A stretch of 20,972 nt of DNA. It comes from a virus. A program made the translations under genes and the position numbers. The notes under the pieces were generated by a model. It did not search any database and had not been told where the DNA came from. It saw only the letters and a list, made by a program, of their open reading frames with translations. Where the stretch lies: IMG/VR virus record IMGVR_UViG_3300045944_000082, positions 1 to 20,972 of that record. One strand, 5' to 3'. This document shows, piece after piece, positions 753-14,727 of the stretch (within the stretch, counting starts at the first letter, position 1; each line of letters opens with the position of its first letter).

Positions 753-2308
753 TGTTCCAACGGATTCGCAACATCTTCCGGCGTTGGATTGGCGATGAGC
801 CGAAGGCACCGGCCCAGAATGTTGACGCCTGGCGGAAGCGTTACGCAGACCTGCGGGCGACTTACGACGCGGCACGGACTACGAGCGAGTACGAGAAGAT
901 TTGGGAAAACGCCGACGCCTTCGACGCCGACTCGGCTCACTCGAAAGACGTTCGTCATACGCTCATTAAACGCAGCCGGTACGAAATCGGCAGCAACGGC
1001 TACAGCGACGGCATAGCCCAGACATACGCCACGGACCTAGTTGGCGTCGGCCCCACGCTGCGGATGCAGACTGGCAGCGAGGGATTCAATCGGCTTGTCG
1101 AGCTGAACTGGTATCGCTGGTGCAAGGCGGTTCACTTCCGCCGAAAGCTCTGGTGCATGGCCCACGCAAAGCATCAGGACGGCGAAGCGTTCGGCATCCT
1201 GCGTCGCAATCCAGGCGTTATGCACCCGGTGAAGCTGGACGTTGTATTGCATGAAGCCGACCAGATTCAAACGCCCTACGTGCCATACGACCAGCCGGGC
1301 TACATAGACGGAATCAAGTTCGATGAGTTTGGAAACCCGCAGTGGTACGACCTGCTAACGGAACATCCCGGAAACACGCATCGGATGTTCTTTAAGTTCG
1401 AGCCGGAACGGGTTGACGCTTCAAAAGTCGTTCATTGGTTCAAGATGCGTCGGCCTGGGCAACACCGTGGCGTGCCTGAATGTTCCAGCACTCTCAACGT
1501 AGGTGCCGCTGCCCGACGCTGGCGGGAAGCCACGCTTGCCGCTGCCGAGACTGCCGCAGACTTCACGCTATTTCTGCGGACGCAGTTTCAGCCGACAGAT
1601 GAGGAAATGCAGTACGCGACCGATTTCACCCAGCAGGAAATCGTAAAGCGAATGATGACGGCCCTGCCCATCGGCTACGAGCCGTTCCAACTGAAGGCCG
1701 AACATCCGAACGCGACGCACGAAGGCTTCCACAAGTCGTTGGTGAACGAGCAGGCACGGCCGAAGTCGATGCCGTACAACAAGGCCGCTTGCGACTCATC
1801 GGCCTACAACTACGCCAGCGGACGCCTGGACCACCAGACCTACTACTCATCGCTGGACGTTGAGCGCGAAGACTGCAACGAGCTGGTATTAAATCCGCTG
1901 TTCGATAGTTGGTTCAATCTGGCCGTGTATCGGCTGGGCTGGTTTGGTGGCGATCCGAATACCGTCAACTACAACGCCCGCGAGCATATCTGGGATTGGC
2001 CTAAGCATCGCGTGGCAGACGTTGAGGCCGAAGCGAACGCGAACAAGACGCGGCTACAAAGCGGCCAACTATTCCTGCACCAGCTATTCGCGGATAGCGG
2101 CTGGGACTTGGCAGACGAAATCACGAAGGCCTCTGAATCTCTTGGGGCCGGCGAAGACGAAATCAAGACGCGGCTGCTGGACGTGACATTGCCACCGCCG
2201 AAGGTTGGCTCGCCACCGGCCGGCGCCCCGGGCAAGGAAACCGAACAAGCGGTGGACGCCGTATTGGCGAAGCTCAACGGGAGGGCCAATGGCTACGCGC
2301 ACCAATAA
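752..2308 (+). CDS. phage portal protein, lambda family
   Basis: A 518-residue protein, the usual size for lambda-type portals (lambda gpB family). Portals form the dodecameric ring at the capsid vertex through which DNA is packaged. Supporting features are the basic N-terminus, a region near residues 60-110 with SNGYSDGIAQTYATDLVGVG, the HQDGEAFGILRR segment near 140-150 and the WDWPKHRVADVEAEANANK segment near 414, all typical of the family. The C-terminal tail is rich in Pro, Gly and Ala. It starts at TAATG directly behind the gpW-like gene, and its end overlaps the protease-capsid gene by 20 bases. No truncation is seen. The family is secure; the exact subfamily is not. Confidence 0.9.
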   Translation: MFQRIRNIFRRWIGDEPKAPAQNVDAWRKRYADLRATYDAARTTSEYEKIWENADAFDADSAHSKDVRHTLIKRSRYEIGSNGYSDGIAQTYATDLVGVGPTLRMQTGSEGFNRLVELNWYRWCKAVHFRRKLWCMAHAKHQDGEAFGILRRNPGVMHPVKLDVVLHEADQIQTPYVPYDQPGYIDGIKFDEFGNPQWYDLLTEHPGNTHRMFFKFEPERVDASKVVHWFKMRRPGQHRGVPECSSTLNVGAAARRWREATLAAAETAADFTLFLRTQFQPTDEEMQYATDFTQQEIVKRMMTALPIGYEPFQLKAEHPNATHEGFHKSLVNEQARPKSMPYNKAACDSSAYNYASGRLDHQTYYSSLDVEREDCNELVLNPLFDSWFNLAVYRLGWFGGDPNTVNYNAREHIWDWPKHRVADVEAEANANKTRLQSGQLFLHQLFADSGWDLADEITKASESLGAGEDEIKTRLLDVTLPPPKVGSPPAGAPGKETEQAVDAVLAKLNGRANGYAHQ

Positions 2309-4355
2309 ACCAGTTATCGCTATCTCTGCCCCTGTGACTGTAGTCGCTGGCGAAATGAGCGGCGACAAGAAGGGGCCGGCGAAGTTTAGTTCCACGTTCT
2401 ACACGGGCGGCAAGCTGGATATTTCCGGCTGGGACATGCCGGTAGTTGTGGACCTGGCGGCACTGAAGGAAGCCAAAGTTCTAGTCGCCAATCTTGACCA
2501 CGACCAATCAAAGCGGGTTGGCAATTTCACGGTAGCCAACGACGGGAAGACTCTAGTCGCCAACGGCACCGCCACGGCGAAGACTGCCGCACGGGACGAG
2601 GTAATCGAATCAGCCCTGGACGGCTACCAGTGGCAATCGAGCCTCGAAGTCAACCCCAGCAAAGTCACGGAAGTAAAGGCCGGCAAGTCGGTAACTGTCA
2701 ACGGACAGGAACACGAGGGGCCGGTTTATGTGGTGGCGGGAACTCTCAAAGGTTTTGGGTTCGTTAGCCACGGAGCTGACGACAACACGACAGCAACTAT
2801 TGCGGCGTCTGCCGCTTCTACGAAAGGGAATGTCATGGACGCTGCTTGCAAAAAGTGGATTGAGGATTTGGGTTTCGACGTTGACACCATCAGCGAAGAC
2901 CAGCGGACGAACCTTGAAGCGAACTTTAAGGGCCAGAACGGGAAGACGAAGGCCAAGAAGGCCGGCGACCCCTACAGCGAAATGAAGGCCGAGGGCCAAC
3001 GCCGCAAGGAAATCCACGCCGTTGCAAAGCGGTGGATTGAGATTCACGACAAGGAAGACGACGTGGACTTTATCGGTTCCGTCGAGAAGTGCGTTGACCA
3101 CGCTATCGAGGCAGGCATTGACGCGAAGGAGTTTCGCGGCGACCTGTACGAGAGCAGCTTTCCATTGGCCCGCACGGTGTCGGCCCCACGGGAGCGAGGC
3201 GTTGGCGACCGGGCACTAATGGCTTCCATCTGCGAGGCGAATCGCCTGCCGAACCTCGACAAGCACTTCACGGACCAAGAGCTGCAAGCCGGACGCGACC
3301 ACTACCCGCACGGCATCGGCCCTGCCGAACTGTTGCTGCTTGGCGCGGAGGCTCGTGGCTATCGACGCACCGGCAGCCGTCAAGTTACCCGCGAGGTGCT
3401 TGAATGTGCGTTTGCCAGAACAACGGACGGCCGGACGATTCGAGCCAGCGGCGGATTCTCCACGATCGACGTGGCGAACATTACCGGGGCCGTAGCAAAT
3501 AAGTTCGTGATGGAAGGCTGGAACGCGGTTGACCAGACCTGCCTTCGCATTGCGAAGATTACGCCGGTTCGCAACTTCCACACCATCACGACCGTAAGCC
3601 TGACCGACTCCCTTCGCTACGAGCAGATTGGAGCAGACGGAGAAATCAAGCACGGCACGCTGGATGAGTTGACCTACACCAATCAGGCCGACACCTACGC
3701 GAAGATGCTGGCCATCACGCGGAAGGACATTATTAACGACGACGTTAGTGCATTCGCCAGCGTGCCTCGAAAGCTTGGCAACGGGGCAATCAAGCTCCTG
3801 AACCATATCTTCTGGACGGAATTCCTGGGTGCCGTCACGGCCAACTTCTTTGGCAGCGGCAACAGCAACATCAATACCGGCGTGGCCGATATGAGCCTCG
3901 GCGGATTGGATGCGACCGAGACTGTATTTATGAACCAGACGAACCCAGACGGAACTCCGTTGGCCCTGATGCCTCGAATCCTGCTGGTTCCGACCGCCTT
4001 GAAGAATAAGGCCCTCACGCTGATGGGTTCTCAACTCAACGCCCTGGCCATCACGTCCTACGCGACTGGCACCGGCGACGCTAACCCGTTCGCTGGCCGG
4101 TTCCGTGTTGAAAGCTCTCCTTACATCAGCGTTAGCTCGTACACGGGTTCCACTTCCACCGCGTGGTGGATGCTGGCCGACCCGAACGAACTGGCGGTTA
4201 TCTCTATCGCGGCTTTGAACGGCCGAGTTGAGCCGACCGTTGATAGTGCCGAGGCCGACTTTAACACGCTTGGCATTCAGTGGAGGGGCTACAGCGACGT
4301 TGGAGTAAACCTCCAAGAGTACCGGGCCGGCGTCCACGCTGACGGAACCACCTAA
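2289..4355 (+). CDS. prohead protease/major capsid protein fusion
   Basis: The 688-residue product starts at ATG 2289, preceded by GGGAGGG; an upstream in-frame start at 2205 would read a shadow of the portal gene and is rejected. Residues about 1-180 look like a prohead protease: His71 in NLDHDQS, Ser117/118 in YQWQSSLEV and His161 in VSHGADD are plausible catalytic residues of the assemblin-like fold. Residues about 183-370 are charged and helical, like a scaffold. Residues about 382-688 match capsid domains of the known protease-capsid fusion family, with ITRKDIINDDVSAF as the clearest motif. The enzyme would mature the prohead by cleaving scaffold from capsid. ATG 2835 (Met183), after AAAGGGA, could start a separate scaffold-capsid product. 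Confidence 0.9.
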   Translation: MATRTNKPVIAISAPVTVVAGEMSGDKKGPAKFSSTFYTGGKLDISGWDMPVVVDLAALKEAKVLVANLDHDQSKRVGNFTVANDGKTLVANGTATAKTAARDEVIESALDGYQWQSSLEVNPSKVTEVKAGKSVTVNGQEHEGPVYVVAGTLKGFGFVSHGADDNTTATIAASAASTKGNVMDAACKKWIEDLGFDVDTISEDQRTNLEANFKGQNGKTKAKKAGDPYSEMKAEGQRRKEIHAVAKRWIEIHDKEDDVDFIGSVEKCVDHAIEAGIDAKEFRGDLYESSFPLARTVSAPRERGVGDRALMASICEANRLPNLDKHFTDQELQAGRDHYPHGIGPAELLLLGAEARGYRRTGSRQVTREVLECAFARTTDGRTIRASGGFSTIDVANITGAVANKFVMEGWNAVDQTCLRIAKITPVRNFHTITTVSLTDSLRYEQIGADGEIKHGTLDELTYTNQADTYAKMLAITRKDIINDDVSAFASVPRKLGNGAIKLLNHIFWTEFLGAVTANFFGSGNSNINTGVADMSLGGLDATETVFMNQTNPDGTPLALMPRILLVPTALKNKALTLMGSQLNALAITSYATGTGDANPFAGRFRVESSPYISVSSYTGSTSTAWWMLADPNELAVISIAALNGRVEPTVDSAEADFNTLGIQWRGYSDVGVNLQEYRAGVHADGTT

Positions 4356-4436: not shown

Positions 4437-4688
4437 ATGCAGCACCGATTAAAACACACCCTGGGCCAGTTCGACGCGAAGAAATGCAACGAGCAGTTCG
4501 GGGCGAGCCTGTCGCTGGACGCAAAAGACCTGCGGAGAGGTTGCATTATCGACCTGCCTCAAGCCGCGTTTGATTGGCTCACGGGGCCAAGATCCAAGAA
4601 GTGCCGAGGGTACTTCGCCCTGATGGAACCTGCAGGCAAAGTTCGCGGCGATGCCAAGGAAACGGAACTGAAGTCACCGGCCAAGTAA
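4437..4688 (+). CDS. small hypothetical protein in the head module
   Basis: An 83-residue protein starting at ATG 4437, six bases after GGAG. A TTG start at 4419 is possible but lies inside a hairpin arm and has no ribosome-binding site. The sequence is mixed and soluble, with DLPQAAFDWLTGPRSK in the middle and a charged, Lys-rich end. I recognise no family. It lies between the capsid and glycosyltransferase genes, and its stop overlaps the next start (TAATG), so it is translated with the enzyme. A role as a partner or target of that enzyme, or as a minor head protein, is possible but not shown. Confidence 0.7.
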   Translation: MQHRLKHTLGQFDAKKCNEQFGASLSLDAKDLRRGCIIDLPQAAFDWLTGPRSKKCRGYFALMEPAGKVRGDAKETELKSPAK

Positions 4689-5977
4689 TGACCGTCAACC
4701 TTACAGACCGACGTATCGTGCTTGGGATGCCAGGCTACGGCAAGCAGTCTTCCGCTGCCGGCCGTGCGTTCTGGCGTGCCTGCCGGGATATGACGACCGT
4801 CGTCAATGAATACTCGCCAGGCTCATTGCTCGCCTGCAACTTCAATAAGTTGTGGTGCACGGCCCTGAACCTGCACCACCAGGGGCACCGCGTTGATTAC
4901 TTCGCAATGCTCCACGATGACATCGGCTGCGAAGACTTCTGGCTAGACACGCTCATCAACGAACTAGAGGCGAAGCAGCTCGACGTTCTGGGCGTCGCGG
5001 TTCCCATCAAGGACAACCGTGGCCTGACCAGCATCGCCCTGCACCATCGCGGCGACAACTGGAACCCTGAATGTCGTCTGACGATGCACGAGCTGTACGA
5101 CCTGCCAGAGACGTTTACGAGTGACGACCTGGGCGGGCTGCCTCTGCTACTCAACACCGGCTGCTGGGTGGCGAAGTGGAATCAGGATTGGGCTAAGAAA
5201 GTCCATTTCACGATTAACGACCGCATCGTATTCGACCGCACGCAGAACCGCTATTGCCCCGAAGTTGAATCAGAGGATTGGTTCTTCTCGCGGCTGATGA
5301 ACGAACTCGGCCTGCGTATCGGTTGCACGCGGAAGATAGCCGTTAAGCACGAGGGCGAAGCGGAGTTTCCAAATACGTTCGCTTGGGGTTCGCGTTCATA
5401 CGACAACGAATCGTGCGTCCACAATCGCACCTGCAGCCCGGTGCCTAACGTCTTCCCGCGTGATATTGAAGGCTGGCTAAGTGAAGCCGAGGCGAAGGCC
5501 CTGGCGGAAATAGCGGCCGGCAAGATGGTTCTGGAAATCGGCTCATACTGCGGGCTATCCACAGTTTGCATGGCCCGCACCGCTAAGTATGTCACGGCCT
5601 GCGATTACTTCGACGGCAGGGCAACTCCTGCACCGCGCGACACGCTGGCGGACTTCAATCGGAACATTGAACGCTATTCATTGACGCATAAAGTATCGAC
5701 GGTTCACCCCGATGAGCTGCCAGAGCTGCAGGCAGAATTCGACCTCATATTTATCGACGGTGCCCACGACTACGCCTCAGTAGCGGCCGACATCGTAAAG
5801 GCCCTGCGGCTGCTGTCGCCTTGCGGGCTGTTGGCATTCCATGACTACAAACGCAGCGGTGACCCCGGCGTTGAACAGGCCGTTGACGACTTGCTCTTGG
5901 ACGGCGGCAAACTGCTTTCACTAACTGACACTCTGGCCGTGGTTCGTCCACCGGCTCAAATTCCCTTGGAGGTTTAG
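4688..5977 (+). CDS. glycosyltransferase-methyltransferase fusion in the head operon
   Basis: A 429-residue, two-domain enzyme. Residues about 1-235 resemble a GT-A (family-2-like) glycosyltransferase: HDD at 76-78 fits the metal/nucleotide-sugar site, ESED at 194-197 the acceptor-side acid, and His221 the late metal ligand. Residues about 255-429 form a class I SAM-dependent methyltransferase of the Methyltransf_24 type, with the glycine motif VLEIGSYCG (281-289), Asp306, FIDGAH (355-360) and AFHDYKR (383-389). A Cys-containing linker joins them. It starts at TAATG, coupled to the preceding gene, and lies within the head genes. Modification of the capsid or decoration proteins is therefore the simplest role: sugar addition followed by methylation. 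Cytoplasmic; no signal peptide or membrane segment is seen. Domains are secure; the target is inference. Confidence 0.82.
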   Translation: MTVNLTDRRIVLGMPGYGKQSSAAGRAFWRACRDMTTVVNEYSPGSLLACNFNKLWCTALNLHHQGHRVDYFAMLHDDIGCEDFWLDTLINELEAKQLDVLGVAVPIKDNRGLTSIALHHRGDNWNPECRLTMHELYDLPETFTSDDLGGLPLLLNTGCWVAKWNQDWAKKVHFTINDRIVFDRTQNRYCPEVESEDWFFSRLMNELGLRIGCTRKIAVKHEGEAEFPNTFAWGSRSYDNESCVHNRTCSPVPNVFPRDIEGWLSEAEAKALAEIAAGKMVLEIGSYCGLSTVCMARTAKYVTACDYFDGRATPAPRDTLADFNRNIERYSLTHKVSTVHPDELPELQAEFDLIFIDGAHDYASVAADIVKALRLLSPCGLLAFHDYKRSGDPGVEQAVDDLLLDGGKLLSLTDTLAVVRPPAQIPLEV

Positions 5978-5980
5978 GCA

Positions 5981-6367
5981 ATGGCTGATGCAACATTTCG
6001 ACACGGCGACGTGACTATGGTGGACTACACGCCCGCGAGCGGCAACGTCGCGGAGGGCACCGTAGTCGTACTCGGCACGGTTACCGCGAACACCAGCGGC
6101 ACGGGCGGCTATGCCACCGTCGCTCATAAGGCGATTACGAACAGCACCCTCGGTGCCGTAAGTGTCGGCGGGGGCATCTACGCGATGGTGAACCTGAACA
6201 ACGCGGCCACCGGGGCGAAGGTGTATTGGGACATCCAGAACAACACCCGCAAAGTGACGACCGTCAGCACGAACAACGTGCAGATGGGCTACATCGTCAG
6301 CACTGGCGGGGCTGGTGCCAATACGACCTGCTACGTCCGCCACGTCCCAGGCCACATCAACGTGTAG
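5981..6367 (+). CDS. DUF2190-type capsid decoration protein
   Basis: A 128-residue, Gly/Thr/Val-rich protein of beta-strand character. The order of features (an early RHGDVTMVDYTPASGNV, alternating VVVLGTV strands, AVSVGGGIYAMV, then TGAKVYWD) fits DUF2190, a small family of capsid-cement or decoration proteins commonly encoded just after the major capsid gene. It would sit on the outer capsid surface. The ribosome-binding site GGAGG lies shortly before ATG 5981. It directly follows the glycosyltransferase fusion, so it is a candidate acceptor for that enzyme. Many Thr, Ser and Asn residues are available, but nothing in the sequence proves modification. Confidence 0.78.
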   Translation: MADATFRHGDVTMVDYTPASGNVAEGTVVVLGTVTANTSGTGGYATVAHKAITNSTLGAVSVGGGIYAMVNLNNAATGAKVYWDIQNNTRKVTTVSTNNVQMGYIVSTGGAGANTTCYVRHVPGHINV

Positions 6368-6370
6368 CCA

Positions 6371-6757
6371 ATGGCAGACATGCTGGCCGACGCTGCGGAC
6401 TTCGTAGCGGAGGCACAAACAGAACACCTAAGCCAACAAGTCACCTACACGAAATTCGGAGGTGGGTTCCAGGCGACAGTAGCGGCAACGCTTGGCCGCT
6501 CCACAGTTGACCTGCCCGACGCTGGCGGCGGTTTAGTTCGCGTGGAATCCTGGGACTTCCTAATTGACGCGGACTTGCTGGCCATAGCGGGAACCCAATT
6601 CGAGCCAGTGAAGGGCGACTTGATTGAGCTAGTGATAGGAACCCAGACGCACCGCCGCGAGGTTATGCCGCTTGGGTTCAATGAGGATGCGTGGGAGTGG
6701 GCCGACCGCTACCACCTGAAACGCCGGATACATACCAAGCTCGTGCGGATTGCGTAA
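6371..6757 (+). CDS. head-closure (head-tail adaptor) protein
   Basis: A 128-residue protein after the decoration gene and before a tail-terminator-like gene. Its pattern is an N-terminal helix (MADMLADAADFVAEAQ), a QVTYTKFGGGFQATVAATLGR strand pair, a WDFLIDADLLA segment, GDLIELV, and a C-terminal RIHTKLVRIA. This resembles small connector proteins (the head-tail joining class that includes lambda gpFII) that close the portal after packaging. It starts three bases after the previous stop with no clear Shine-Dalgarno site, so it may depend on coupling. The connector class is supported by position and pattern; the exact family is not proven. Confidence 0.65.
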   Translation: MADMLADAADFVAEAQTEHLSQQVTYTKFGGGFQATVAATLGRSTVDLPDAGGGLVRVESWDFLIDADLLAIAGTQFEPVKGDLIELVIGTQTHRREVMPLGFNEDAWEWADRYHLKRRIHTKLVRIA

Positions 6758-7205: not shown

Positions 7206-8162
7206 ATGCCCGACGCAATTTTTAATGCCGCATTTGATAAAGAGCGAGTCACGCTTGCAGCCGGCATTAGTGCGGGCGAAATCTGGCAGATGAAATCTGG
7301 ACTGGCAGCCTACAACAACGGCATAGCCCGTTCGTCAGGGGACCAGCCAGAGTTTACGACCGAAGGCGTTGTCACTGTCACCAAGTCAAACGGCGTCGTA
7401 ATCCTCGACGGCGGGCGGGTGTATTGGGACCACTCCGCAGGTTCAGCCACCTACAAGCCGGCGAACGACCGGGACTTCTATATCGGCGTGGCTGTTGGCG
7501 ATTGGGAGTCTGGCGACCTGCTGATGAACGTTCGGCTCAACGCCCAGCAGGCCAACATAATCGACTTCCAACGCGACGCCTTTGATACGGTTCTAATCGG
7601 CACGCAGGCCGTTGGCGGTTTTGGTGAGTGGAAAAGTCGTGGCGGTGCAGTTAAGTGCAACATCACCAGCACGAGCGAGGCCCAAAAGGCCGACATGCTA
7701 TCGCAGTTCGCTTTCGATAAGACGGCGAACGCGATTGTAGAGCTGATATTCAACGTCCGAGACGACGGCAGCGGAACGGTTGTGGACGTGTCTATGGGTG
7801 TGGCGAACGATACGCACGCCTCAAATGCAGACACGATTACGGAATCATGCTTCATTCACCTGGACGCGAACGACACAAGAATCTTTGCCGAGTCGGATGA
7901 CAACGCGGCCGGCGAAGTTAATGCAACCGACACCACAATTACCTACACGGCCGGCACGCCTGTTGAGGTGTGGTTCGATTTCCGCAACCCGGCAGACATC
8001 CAAATCTACATCAACGCGGCTCTAGTGCTTGGCTCTACTACGTTCACCATCAGTGCCGCCACCGGGCCGTTCAAGCTGCTTCTGCACGTTGAGAAGTCGT
8101 CAGCGGCGGACACCTACGAAATTGACATAAACCGATTTCACGCTCGCATTGCGGAGCAATAA
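7206..8162 (+). CDS. decoration protein with C-terminal lectin-like domain
   Basis: A 318-residue protein. Residues about 1-120 resemble DUF2190: GVVTVTKSNGVVILDGGRVY, YWDHSAG and IGVAVGDWESGD recall the strand pattern of the smaller decoration protein at 5981-6367. Residues about 130-318 differ and read as a jelly-roll beta-sandwich like concanavalin A or laminin-G modules, with AFDKTANAIVELIFNV, VEVWFDFRNPADIQIYINA and FKLLLHVEKSSA. Such modules often bind carbohydrate. The protein could decorate the capsid or neck and present a sugar-binding surface. It lies between the connectors and the tail tube gene. The decoration part is moderately sure; the lectin-like fold is inferred from strand pattern. 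Confidence 0.65.
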   Translation: MPDAIFNAAFDKERVTLAAGISAGEIWQMKSGLAAYNNGIARSSGDQPEFTTEGVVTVTKSNGVVILDGGRVYWDHSAGSATYKPANDRDFYIGVAVGDWESGDLLMNVRLNAQQANIIDFQRDAFDTVLIGTQAVGGFGEWKSRGGAVKCNITSTSEAQKADMLSQFAFDKTANAIVELIFNVRDDGSGTVVDVSMGVANDTHASNADTITESCFIHLDANDTRIFAESDDNAAGEVNATDTTITYTAGTPVEVWFDFRNPADIQIYINAALVLGSTTFTISAATGPFKLLLHVEKSSAADTYEIDINRFHARIAEQ

Positions 8163-8639: not shown

Positions 8640-8978
8640 ATGTTCACCGAAGTTGAGACATTGCAACTGGACCGCATCTATAAGGACGCCTCCCACAAGG
8701 TGGCAGAGCTACCCGCACGCGAGAAGGCCGAATTCCTGAAGGCCGAACAGCAGCACCGCAAGCCGTACCCGATAACGCCGCTGACGGCTATCCCGGCCCC
8801 GCTGCTGGAGAAGGTACTGGACGCCATAACCGGCGAGATTCCTGCCGACGTGCGTCCCCTGATTGGCCCGCTGCGTAAGGCCACACGCGGTTGTGAAACC
8901 GGCGCCGATGCTAACCTGCTATCCGCCCAACTGAAGGCGGTTCTGGACGCCGCAGGCCTGACGCCGAAGGAGGCCTAA
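8640..8978 (+). CDS. hypothetical tail-module protein
   Basis: A 112-residue, Ala/Leu/Glu-rich, largely helical protein between the tail tube and the first chaperone gene. AGAGG lies just before the ATG, and the stop overlaps the next ATG (TAATG). Segments include AELPAREKAEFLKAEQQ and PAPLLEKVLDAITGEIP. No family is recognised. Genes here often encode tail assembly factors, so a helper role in tail assembly is the likeliest reading, but that comes only from position. Confidence 0.65.
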   Translation: MFTEVETLQLDRIYKDASHKVAELPAREKAEFLKAEQQHRKPYPITPLTAIPAPLLEKVLDAITGEIPADVRPLIGPLRKATRGCETGADANLLSAQLKAVLDAAGLTPKEA

Positions 8979-9448
8979 TGCACGCCTTCAAGGATAAGGA
9001 CGGCCGGGAATGGGGCGTGCATCTTAACGGCTGGCAACTAAAGAAGATTCAAGAGAAGCTAGGCCACAAGTGCCGAGATCCGCAGGCCGTGCTTGCCGCC
9101 AGCGATGACCCGCCTTTGTTACTGGACATCCTATTCGTATTGTGCGAGGCCCAGGTTGCCGAGCGTGGCCTGACGGAACAGCAGTTCTGCGAGGCCCTCG
9201 AAGGCGACGCCTTAGACGAAGCAACGGCCGCTTATCTAGACGAATCAATCCCTTTTGTCCCGCGCCAATACAGGGCACTCCTGGCACAGGTGTTGGCGGA
9301 AGCGAAGACGGCCCAGGAGAGGGCGACGGAGGAACTGACGAAGGACATGAGGGCAGTCATCGACAAGGCGATGGGCCAAGTTCAGAGCCTATTACCTGGG
9401 ACCAATACTGGCAATTCATCTGGGAAGCCGCTGGCGTCACTGGCCTAG
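8978..9448 (+). CDS. tail assembly chaperone, gpG-like
   Basis: A 156-residue, mostly helical acidic protein between the tail tube and tape measure genes, as lambda gpG is. It opens with a small strand region (FKDKDGREWGVHLNGWQLKK) followed by helices and ends in a low-complexity Gly/Ser tail. The -1 frame is open across at least 9142-9446 and continues into a conserved-looking domain (9379-9696). The two frames thus look like a gpG/gpGT pair made by programmed frameshifting, in which the long form binds the tape measure and recruits tube subunits. It is coupled to the gene before it by TAATG. Confidence 0.7.
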   Translation: MHAFKDKDGREWGVHLNGWQLKKIQEKLGHKCRDPQAVLAASDDPPLLLDILFVLCEAQVAERGLTEQQFCEALEGDALDEATAAYLDESIPFVPRQYRALLAQVLAEAKTAQERATEELTKDMRAVIDKAMGQVQSLLPGTNTGNSSGKPLASLA

Positions 9449-13845: not shown

Positions 13846-14727
13846 CTACCACGGCCTAAATAGCTTTGTCTCATCCTGACGCATCAAGCTAGGGTCAATG
13901 TAGCTACGCCTAGTAGTGGCCGGATCCGAGTGCCCCAAAGCCTGCGTCGCATCCTGGCCGGTTACGTGCAGCCAGCTAGCATGGCTCACCCTCATACGGT
14001 GGTACTTGCAATACCTATCAGACGGCAGGCCAGCCCACGTCAACAGCTTGCGGTAATCGTAGTACAGCATTGTGGCATCTTTGGCCCACGGGAATACCAA
14101 GTCACGTTTAGGCCCATTGGGCGGTAGTATCTGCTCGAGCATCAGAACCAAATCAGCCCACAGCCGATGTACTGCCGGCTTGCGTTTGCCCTTGCGGATA
14201 CTGGCCGGCAGTACGGCAACACGCTCTTCGAGGTGCAGGTGTTCCACCCTCATTACCAGCGTCGCCCCAATTCTTTCGCCGCTGCACCACAGGAACCCGT
14301 GAAGGCACATCCACCAACGCCACGCCGGTATGCCGCATATGTCGCCACGCCAACGCCGGCAGGAGTTGAAGATTCGTACTAGCTCATCTTCACGCCAGGC
14401 CACGGGAATCTTCTCAGGTTCAGGCACGAACGTGAACGCGGGCCACTCTTGGACGTGACGTTTCTTAGCAGCCCAAGTCCAGAACGCTTTGATACGGCCT
14501 GCCCGTTCGTTGGCGGTTCGTTCTGCGAGCTGTCGCCGCGTGAGCAGGTGGCGAATCAACGCTGTTAGATTCTCGTCCGACAGATCCGCCAGCGTCGGCT
14601 CACGGCCCAGCAGTTCGGCTAGGTCATCGACGGCACGGCGGTAGTGTTCCACCGTCTTGCTATCGCGGATTTTCAGGTTTTGCGGGATGTACTTGCCGAG
14701 AACCCAAGCACGCAAATTGTCCGCCAT
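13846..14727 (-). CDS. int: tyrosine recombinase (phage integrase)
   Basis: A 293-residue site-specific recombinase. Residues about 1-105 form the SAM-like core-binding domain (TVEHYRRAVDDLAELLG, NERAGRIKAFWTWAAKK). The catalytic domain follows with all key residues: Arg152 (GERIGA), Lys179 (IRKGKRK), His243 and Arg246 (YHRMR), His266 (LGHSDP) and the nucleophile Tyr276 (RRSYIDPS). No separate arm-binding domain is obvious, so it may be a minimal type. The overall phrasing (WREDELVRIF, GIPAWRWW, GERIGATL, FPW) resembles planctomycete enzymes. It would integrate and excise the phage at attP, expected nearby. No clear Shine-Dalgarno precedes the ATG. Confidence 0.92.
   Translation of the reverse strand: MADNLRAWVLGKYIPQNLKIRDSKTVEHYRRAVDDLAELLGREPTLADLSDENLTALIRHLLTRRQLAERTANERAGRIKAFWTWAAKKRHVQEWPAFTFVPEPEKIPVAWREDELVRIFNSCRRWRGDICGIPAWRWWMCLHGFLWCSGERIGATLVMRVEHLHLEERVAVLPASIRKGKRKPAVHRLWADLVLMLEQILPPNGPKRDLVFPWAKDATMLYYDYRKLLTWAGLPSDRYCKYHRMRVSHASWLHVTGQDATQALGHSDPATTRRSYIDPSLMRQDETKLFRPW

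Follow-up and report, generated by a model that had tools for sequence, protein, structure and literature searches.

Among phages, glycosylated virions have been described in a small number of cultured mycobacteriophages. Among the closest described systems, A064R of the chlorovirus PBCV-1 is a proven fusion of two glycosyltransferase (GT) domains and one methyltransferase (MT) domain, GT-GT-MT, 638 aa in length, which finishes and methylates the capsid glycan: domain D1 adopts a GT-A fold and domain D3 is proven to add the 2-O-methyl group to rhamnose (PMC9614988). In the cluster O mycobacteriophages Corndog and Firecracker, the O-methyltransferase (OMT) gp33 and the glycosyltransferases gp35 and gp36 are encoded between portal and protease, and methyl or glycan modification of the capsid was proposed for Corndog-type phages in 2015 (PMC4351075); glycosylated mycobacteriophage virions were reported later. 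The archaeal virus STIV encodes A197, an essential protein for which glycosylation of B345, the capsid protein of the same virus, has been proposed (PMC10551542). On the cellular side, MeT1 of Mycobacterium hassiacum is a sugar 1-O-methyltransferase of methylmannose polysaccharide (PMC9883506).

The locus described here lies in a virus record of 20,972 bases, analysed at its full length and referred to below as the window. Its head genes follow one another on the plus strand: a portal protein gene at 752–2308 (PF05136, E 7.5e-42), a head maturation protease fused to the major capsid protein at 2289–4355 (PF25209, E 7.3e-34; phrog_4523, E 5.3e-53), a small protein with no assigned role at 4437–4688, the GT-MT gene at 4688–5977, a cement (decoration) protein gene at 5981–6367 (PF09956, Phage_cement_2, E 2.6e-9) and a head-tail joining protein gene at 6371–6757 (PF25138, E 1e-23). 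The reading frame at 4688–5977 is open and encodes 429 aa, with a predicted GT-A glycosyltransferase in the N-terminal half and a predicted class I SAM O-methyltransferase in the C-terminal half. The ATG of this gene shares bases with the stop codon of the small ORF before it (TAATG), and the cement gene starts 3 bp past its own stop. An earlier note on this DNA had placed the enzyme between the capsid and decoration genes, as the profile matches on either side bear out, and had described it as coupled to the small protein. The latter is a real ORF with the TAATG overlap, but the coupling is not specific to the enzyme: homologues of the small protein occur in 17 loci among those searched, including the GT-less loci L161 and L162, which rules it out as a dedicated partner of the enzyme. 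Its relatives show sub-threshold matches to DUF7210/DUF7302. Downstream in the same operon, at 7206–8162, lies a second Phage_cement_2 protein of 318 aa with a longer C-terminal part; in the GT-less loci L167 and L168 a long cement similar in sequence to this protein is located directly after the capsid gene. A tyrosine integrase gene is present on the minus strand at 13846–14727 and, on this ground, the phage is probably temperate. A search of the window for tRNAs and known RNA families found none.

The GT domain spans residues 1–245 (4688–5422). AlphaFold models built on an alignment of relatives reach a pLDDT of 95.9 and a pTM of 0.92 for this domain, and 94.1 and 0.87 for the full protein. 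When the GT model is compared with the PDB by Foldseek, 125 matches are obtained at E ≤ 0.001, and the best are for the most part GT-A enzymes or sugar nucleotidyltransferases, whose fold is related: among solved structures STIV A197, a viral glycosyltransferase, ranks first (E 4.8e-7), followed by the collagen galactosyltransferase COLGALT1 (E 2.7e-6) and others. Model and matches together assign a GT-A fold to a domain that has no Pfam or PHROGs match of its own; the named Pfam family Glycos_transf_2 is matched weakly by 21 of 59 relatives (best 1e-4) and its curated cut-off is not reached by the window protein. GT-A enzymes carry four active-site signatures, namely DxD, the G-loop glycine, xED and the C-His (PMC7185993). 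All four are present here, as H76-D-D78 (codons 4913–4921), G158, E196-D197 (5273–5278) and H221 (5348–5350), and are invariant in 59 aligned domains, the assignment being based on motif order and predicted secondary structure; the GT-A domain with HDD, ESED and H221 recognized in the earlier note is thus confirmed. The GT half is predicted to transfer a sugar from a nucleotide-sugar. Genes for the phage's own sugar supply are nearly absent, with one epimerase in 15 records of relatives and none in the window, so a host nucleotide-sugar is assumed.

The MT domain covers residues 256–425 (5453–5962). Methyltransf_24 (PF13578) is matched at residues 282–387 with an E value of 2.9e-17 and 63.9 bits, against a cut-off of 26.3. 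Residues E283-x-G285, D306, D357, H360 and H385-D386 are invariant in 33 fusions, and E283, G285 and D306 provide the SAM-binding ExG and acidic loop of a class I SAM methyltransferase. With this profile match, the confident model and the fold matches, the fusion to a SAM methyltransferase asserted earlier stands. The best structural match of the MT half in the full model is MeT1 (E 1.3e-10), a similarity from which we infer that this half is a sugar O-methyltransferase. A further match, to phrog_2675 over 5465–5923 (E 3.3e-14), is labelled 'DNA methyltransferase' in PHROGs, a label that may be wrong. It bears on an alternative in which the enzyme hypermodifies phage DNA, acting as a base glycosyltransferase and a methyltransferase. 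Phage DNA glycosyltransferases do exist, as reported by Pyle in 2024. However, the structure of the MT half resembles small-molecule and sugar O-methyltransferases, the gene is located in the head operon, and no thymidylate-synthase-like hydroxymethylase (PF00303) was found in 15 records of relatives, which are incomplete. DNA hypermodification was rejected on the PF00303 result in these incomplete records, and appears highly improbable. A search for Tet_JBP gave no match, and the control was likewise without a match.

Scans of viral contigs recovered 110 distinct ORFs with the GT domain, some of them cut by contig ends: 51 have the GT-MT arrangement, 13 the swapped order MT-GT (for example L043, L047, L058, L060 and L073) and 46 the GT alone. 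On the best quick GT tree, many of whose branches are weak, the architecture changes about 26 times and the presence of the MT 24 times; mixed arrangements occur even within well-supported small clades, such as that uniting L032, L126 and L035 (GT-MT) with L104 (MT-GT). Judged from these sequences, the GT appears to be the core of the family and the MT a module joined to it in either order. Fusion in both orders suggests a common pathway for GT and MT, and the 46 relatives that lack an MT in the same protein indicate that methylation is optional. The same 46 relatives can be read differently, the GT acting on a virion protein and the MT on a protein side chain, such as an Asn, Glu or Lys of capsid or cement, instead of on the sugar. 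NCBIfam matches of relatives do include protein L-isoaspartate methyltransferases, at weak scores; the best structural match of the MT is nevertheless a sugar O-methyltransferase, and the repeated fusion in both orders speaks for a shared pathway. Separate targets for the two halves are therefore quite unlikely.

Several loci show further variations. In L069 (8146–9774) the C-terminal part joined to the GT is rich in cysteine and by eye is radical SAM/SPASM-like, and L002 encodes near its portal gene, on the minus strand at 2703–3680, a separate protein that by eye is radical SAM-like. The GT of L131 (7863–9311) bears an unrelated C-terminal extension of approximately 235 aa, which the MT profile does not match. 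Two family GT genes, one fused to an MT and one alone, lie close together in L043 (9119–13070) and L049 (9983–12332). In L031 a gene for a PASTA-domain protein (8796–9239, E 1.6e-15) separates the capsid gene from the GT-MT gene; as peptidoglycan is a ligand of PASTA domains, this protein may be a capsid or host-binding decoration.

The earlier note also located the enzyme in the head operon and would have been contradicted by a family found mainly outside head operons. The opposite pattern emerges: a major capsid gene lies within 6 kb in 94 of the 110 relatives, five of the 94 being counted on weak capsid scores. The capsids near the GT gene belong to three sequence types, namely the protease-capsid type of the window, an HK97-like type (phrog_10) and a third (phrog_1623), and in three further loci (L004, L041 and L042) a gene resembling a portal or the phrog_29 capsid lies close to the GT gene. 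Taken together, the fusion and placement data identify a genuine fusion and a head-operon accessory. When 85,000 bacterial and archaeal genomes were scanned with patterns from the alignment of close relatives, 48 pattern matches and no relative were obtained, the patterns being narrow enough for distant cellular relatives to escape; a collection of annotated phages gave only weak matches to the MT and none for two GT-only relatives. In a scan based on the capsid protein, 52 of 114 capsids have the GT gene downstream and 42 lack it although 2.5 kb or more of sequence follows the capsid gene. Even close capsids differ in this respect: L096 has the GT gene and L162 does not, their capsids being 88.6% identical over the C-terminal 290 aa, and in L162 the small gene is followed directly by the cement gene. 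The enzyme is an accessory cassette that is absent from close relatives.

Phage glycosyltransferases with roles at the host surface are known, and the window carries an integrase gene, so the phage may be temperate. The enzyme might accordingly modify host surface glycans, leading to serotype conversion or exclusion of other phages, or else other virion or tail proteins. This proposition is very unlikely: in many lineages the gene belongs to the late head operon, where it is coupled to head genes, and it is co-inherited with the cement gene, and the enzyme, from a reading of its sequence by eye, looks soluble, unlike the membrane-bound enzymes of serotype conversion, which are encoded outside the late head operon.

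The association with the cement gene points to a candidate substrate. Across the same 54 phages, the state of the GT gene changes seven times on the portal tree, seven times on the capsid tree and eight times on the head-tail joining tree, but only twice on the cement tree. The head-tail joining gene is the next gene past the cement gene and serves as a control: as it shows eight changes, neighbourhood alone does not explain the cement pattern. A careful cement tree likewise gives two changes and does not reject a single clade for all cements accompanied by the GT (GT-plus), with p 0.63 in the AU test. The motif [TS]x[STG]TN[NM], chosen after the data had been seen and represented in the window by S96-T97-N98-N99 (6266–6277), is a candidate site of modification or of recognition by the enzyme. 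It occurs in 38 of 45 cements of GT-plus phages, and all 46 cements of GT-minus phages lack it; of the seven GT-plus cements without it, five are encoded upstream of the GT gene. Asparagines at positions 54, 71, 74, 98 and 114 are present in 80–100% of GT-plus cements and in 0–2% of the others, the contrast being 97% against 0% for Asn54 (codon 6140–6142) and 95% against 0% for Asn98. A reverse scan from GT-plus cements, one pattern of which contained N71 and N74, found a GT ORF directly upstream of 26 of 26 distinct motif-bearing cements and of 0 of 6 motif-less ones, counting cements with upstream sequence and including the GT ORF of L244 through a frameshift. In L256 and L260, the closest cements that come without a GT, N54, S96 and N98 are missing but N71, N74 and N114 are kept.

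Co-inheritance with one form of cement makes this protein the prime acceptor candidate and, on comparative sequence grounds, the likely substrate of the enzyme. Several observations qualify the pattern. The GT-plus cements form one clade, so the asparagines may be shared by descent or be structural; adjacent genes may travel as a block; and the supported independent contrasts number approximately six, about four of them for cement coupling and none against (p ~0.125). The neighbouring small ORFs of relatives with HK97-like capsids do not contain the STNN motif, so the acceptor there must differ, and several MT-GT relatives are located after a cement that lacks the motif.

The earlier note had cited the glycosylated capsid and tail proteins of mycobacteriophages and supposed methylated glycans on the virion that might shield it or alter adsorption. 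The likely target is here narrowed, as the two changes on the cement tree against seven on the capsid tree point to the cement. Modification of the major capsid protein itself, for instance at its C-terminal tail, would reduce the cement association to genetic linkage. The GT-MT gene lies just downstream of the capsid gene, distance matrices correlate with the GT equally for capsid (0.44) and cement (0.42) and so do not separate the two, and mycobacteriophage capsid C-termini are reported to carry glycans. The tails of GT-plus phages are also richer in Ser/Thr, with a mean of 1.35 against 0.89 in the last eight residues. The tails, however, do not follow the GT gene once relatedness is allowed for, and close GT-less capsids retain the same ADGG-S tail; with the Ser/Thr enrichment gone in the comparison of close relatives, the C-terminal tail was rejected as acceptor. 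The capsid protein as target is on the whole unlikely.

The preferred explanation, to which a probability of roughly 55% is attached, is that the protein is a soluble two-domain virion-modifying enzyme that glycosylates the cement and then O-methylates the sugar. What we infer comprises the catalytic activity, the sugar donated, the site that accepts it, the methylation of that sugar and any advantage to the phage, and the events would unfold as follows. The enzyme would be made late in infection together with the head proteins. Its GT-A domain would take a sugar from a host nucleotide-sugar, with the metal bound via H76-x-D78 and H221 and D197 acting as the base, in a reaction that is likely to be inverting. 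The sugar would be placed onto the decoration protein, the product of the gene that follows, the likeliest site being in or next to S96-T97-N98-N99, or an asparagine exclusive to cements accompanied by the enzyme. The fused MT would then O-methylate the transferred sugar as a cap, and the capsid surface would present the glycan, carried on the cement, at numerous positions. A broader proposal, held tentatively and at somewhat less than even odds, is that of a 'glyco-cement' cassette: the enzyme and a dedicated decoration protein would be exchanged as a unit between capsids and would cover the outside of the capsid with methyl-capped sugars on an Asn or Ser-Thr motif, in a widespread and undescribed system whose MT is optional and often gained, lost or permuted.

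In a large family of uncultured phages the head operon carries this enzyme, and genome comparison singles out two adjacent genes, for the enzyme and for its likely substrate, whose small size permits co-expression. If the proposal is true, they constitute a compact system for glycosylating proteins, in which an optional methyl cap is built in, and sugar-coated phages become predictable from sequence.

How, then, does the window enzyme compare with the systems described at the outset? Like A064R, which with A061L builds and methylates the glycans of the major capsid protein, it holds GT and SAM MT domains in one polypeptide; unlike it, A064R belongs to a eukaryotic algal virus, has the order GT-GT-MT and elongates an N-glycan already attached to the major capsid protein. 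A064R is not among the Foldseek matches listed for the window models, and the likeness drawn here is one of domain content and proposed function. STIV A197, the top solved match, is also a viral GT-A glycosyltransferase, but one from an archaeal virus, with a single domain, 12% identity and no methyltransferase. MeT1, the best structural match of the MT, differs in being a cellular single-domain enzyme with approximately 21% identity and a different acceptor. The cluster O phages share with the window the presence of OMT and GT genes inside the head operon; theirs, however, are separate, unfused genes, with a similarity to the family profiles of 22 bits for the MT and approximately 11 bits for the GT. 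The idea of capsid modification by OMT and GT genes of the head operon is hence not wholly new, given the cluster O proposal and the A064R precedent. What is new is a fused, order-shuffled enzyme that forms a large head-operon family with a probable dedicated cement partner, and the observation that its GT gene comes and goes relative to the portal, capsid and head-tail joining genes, but not relative to the cement gene.
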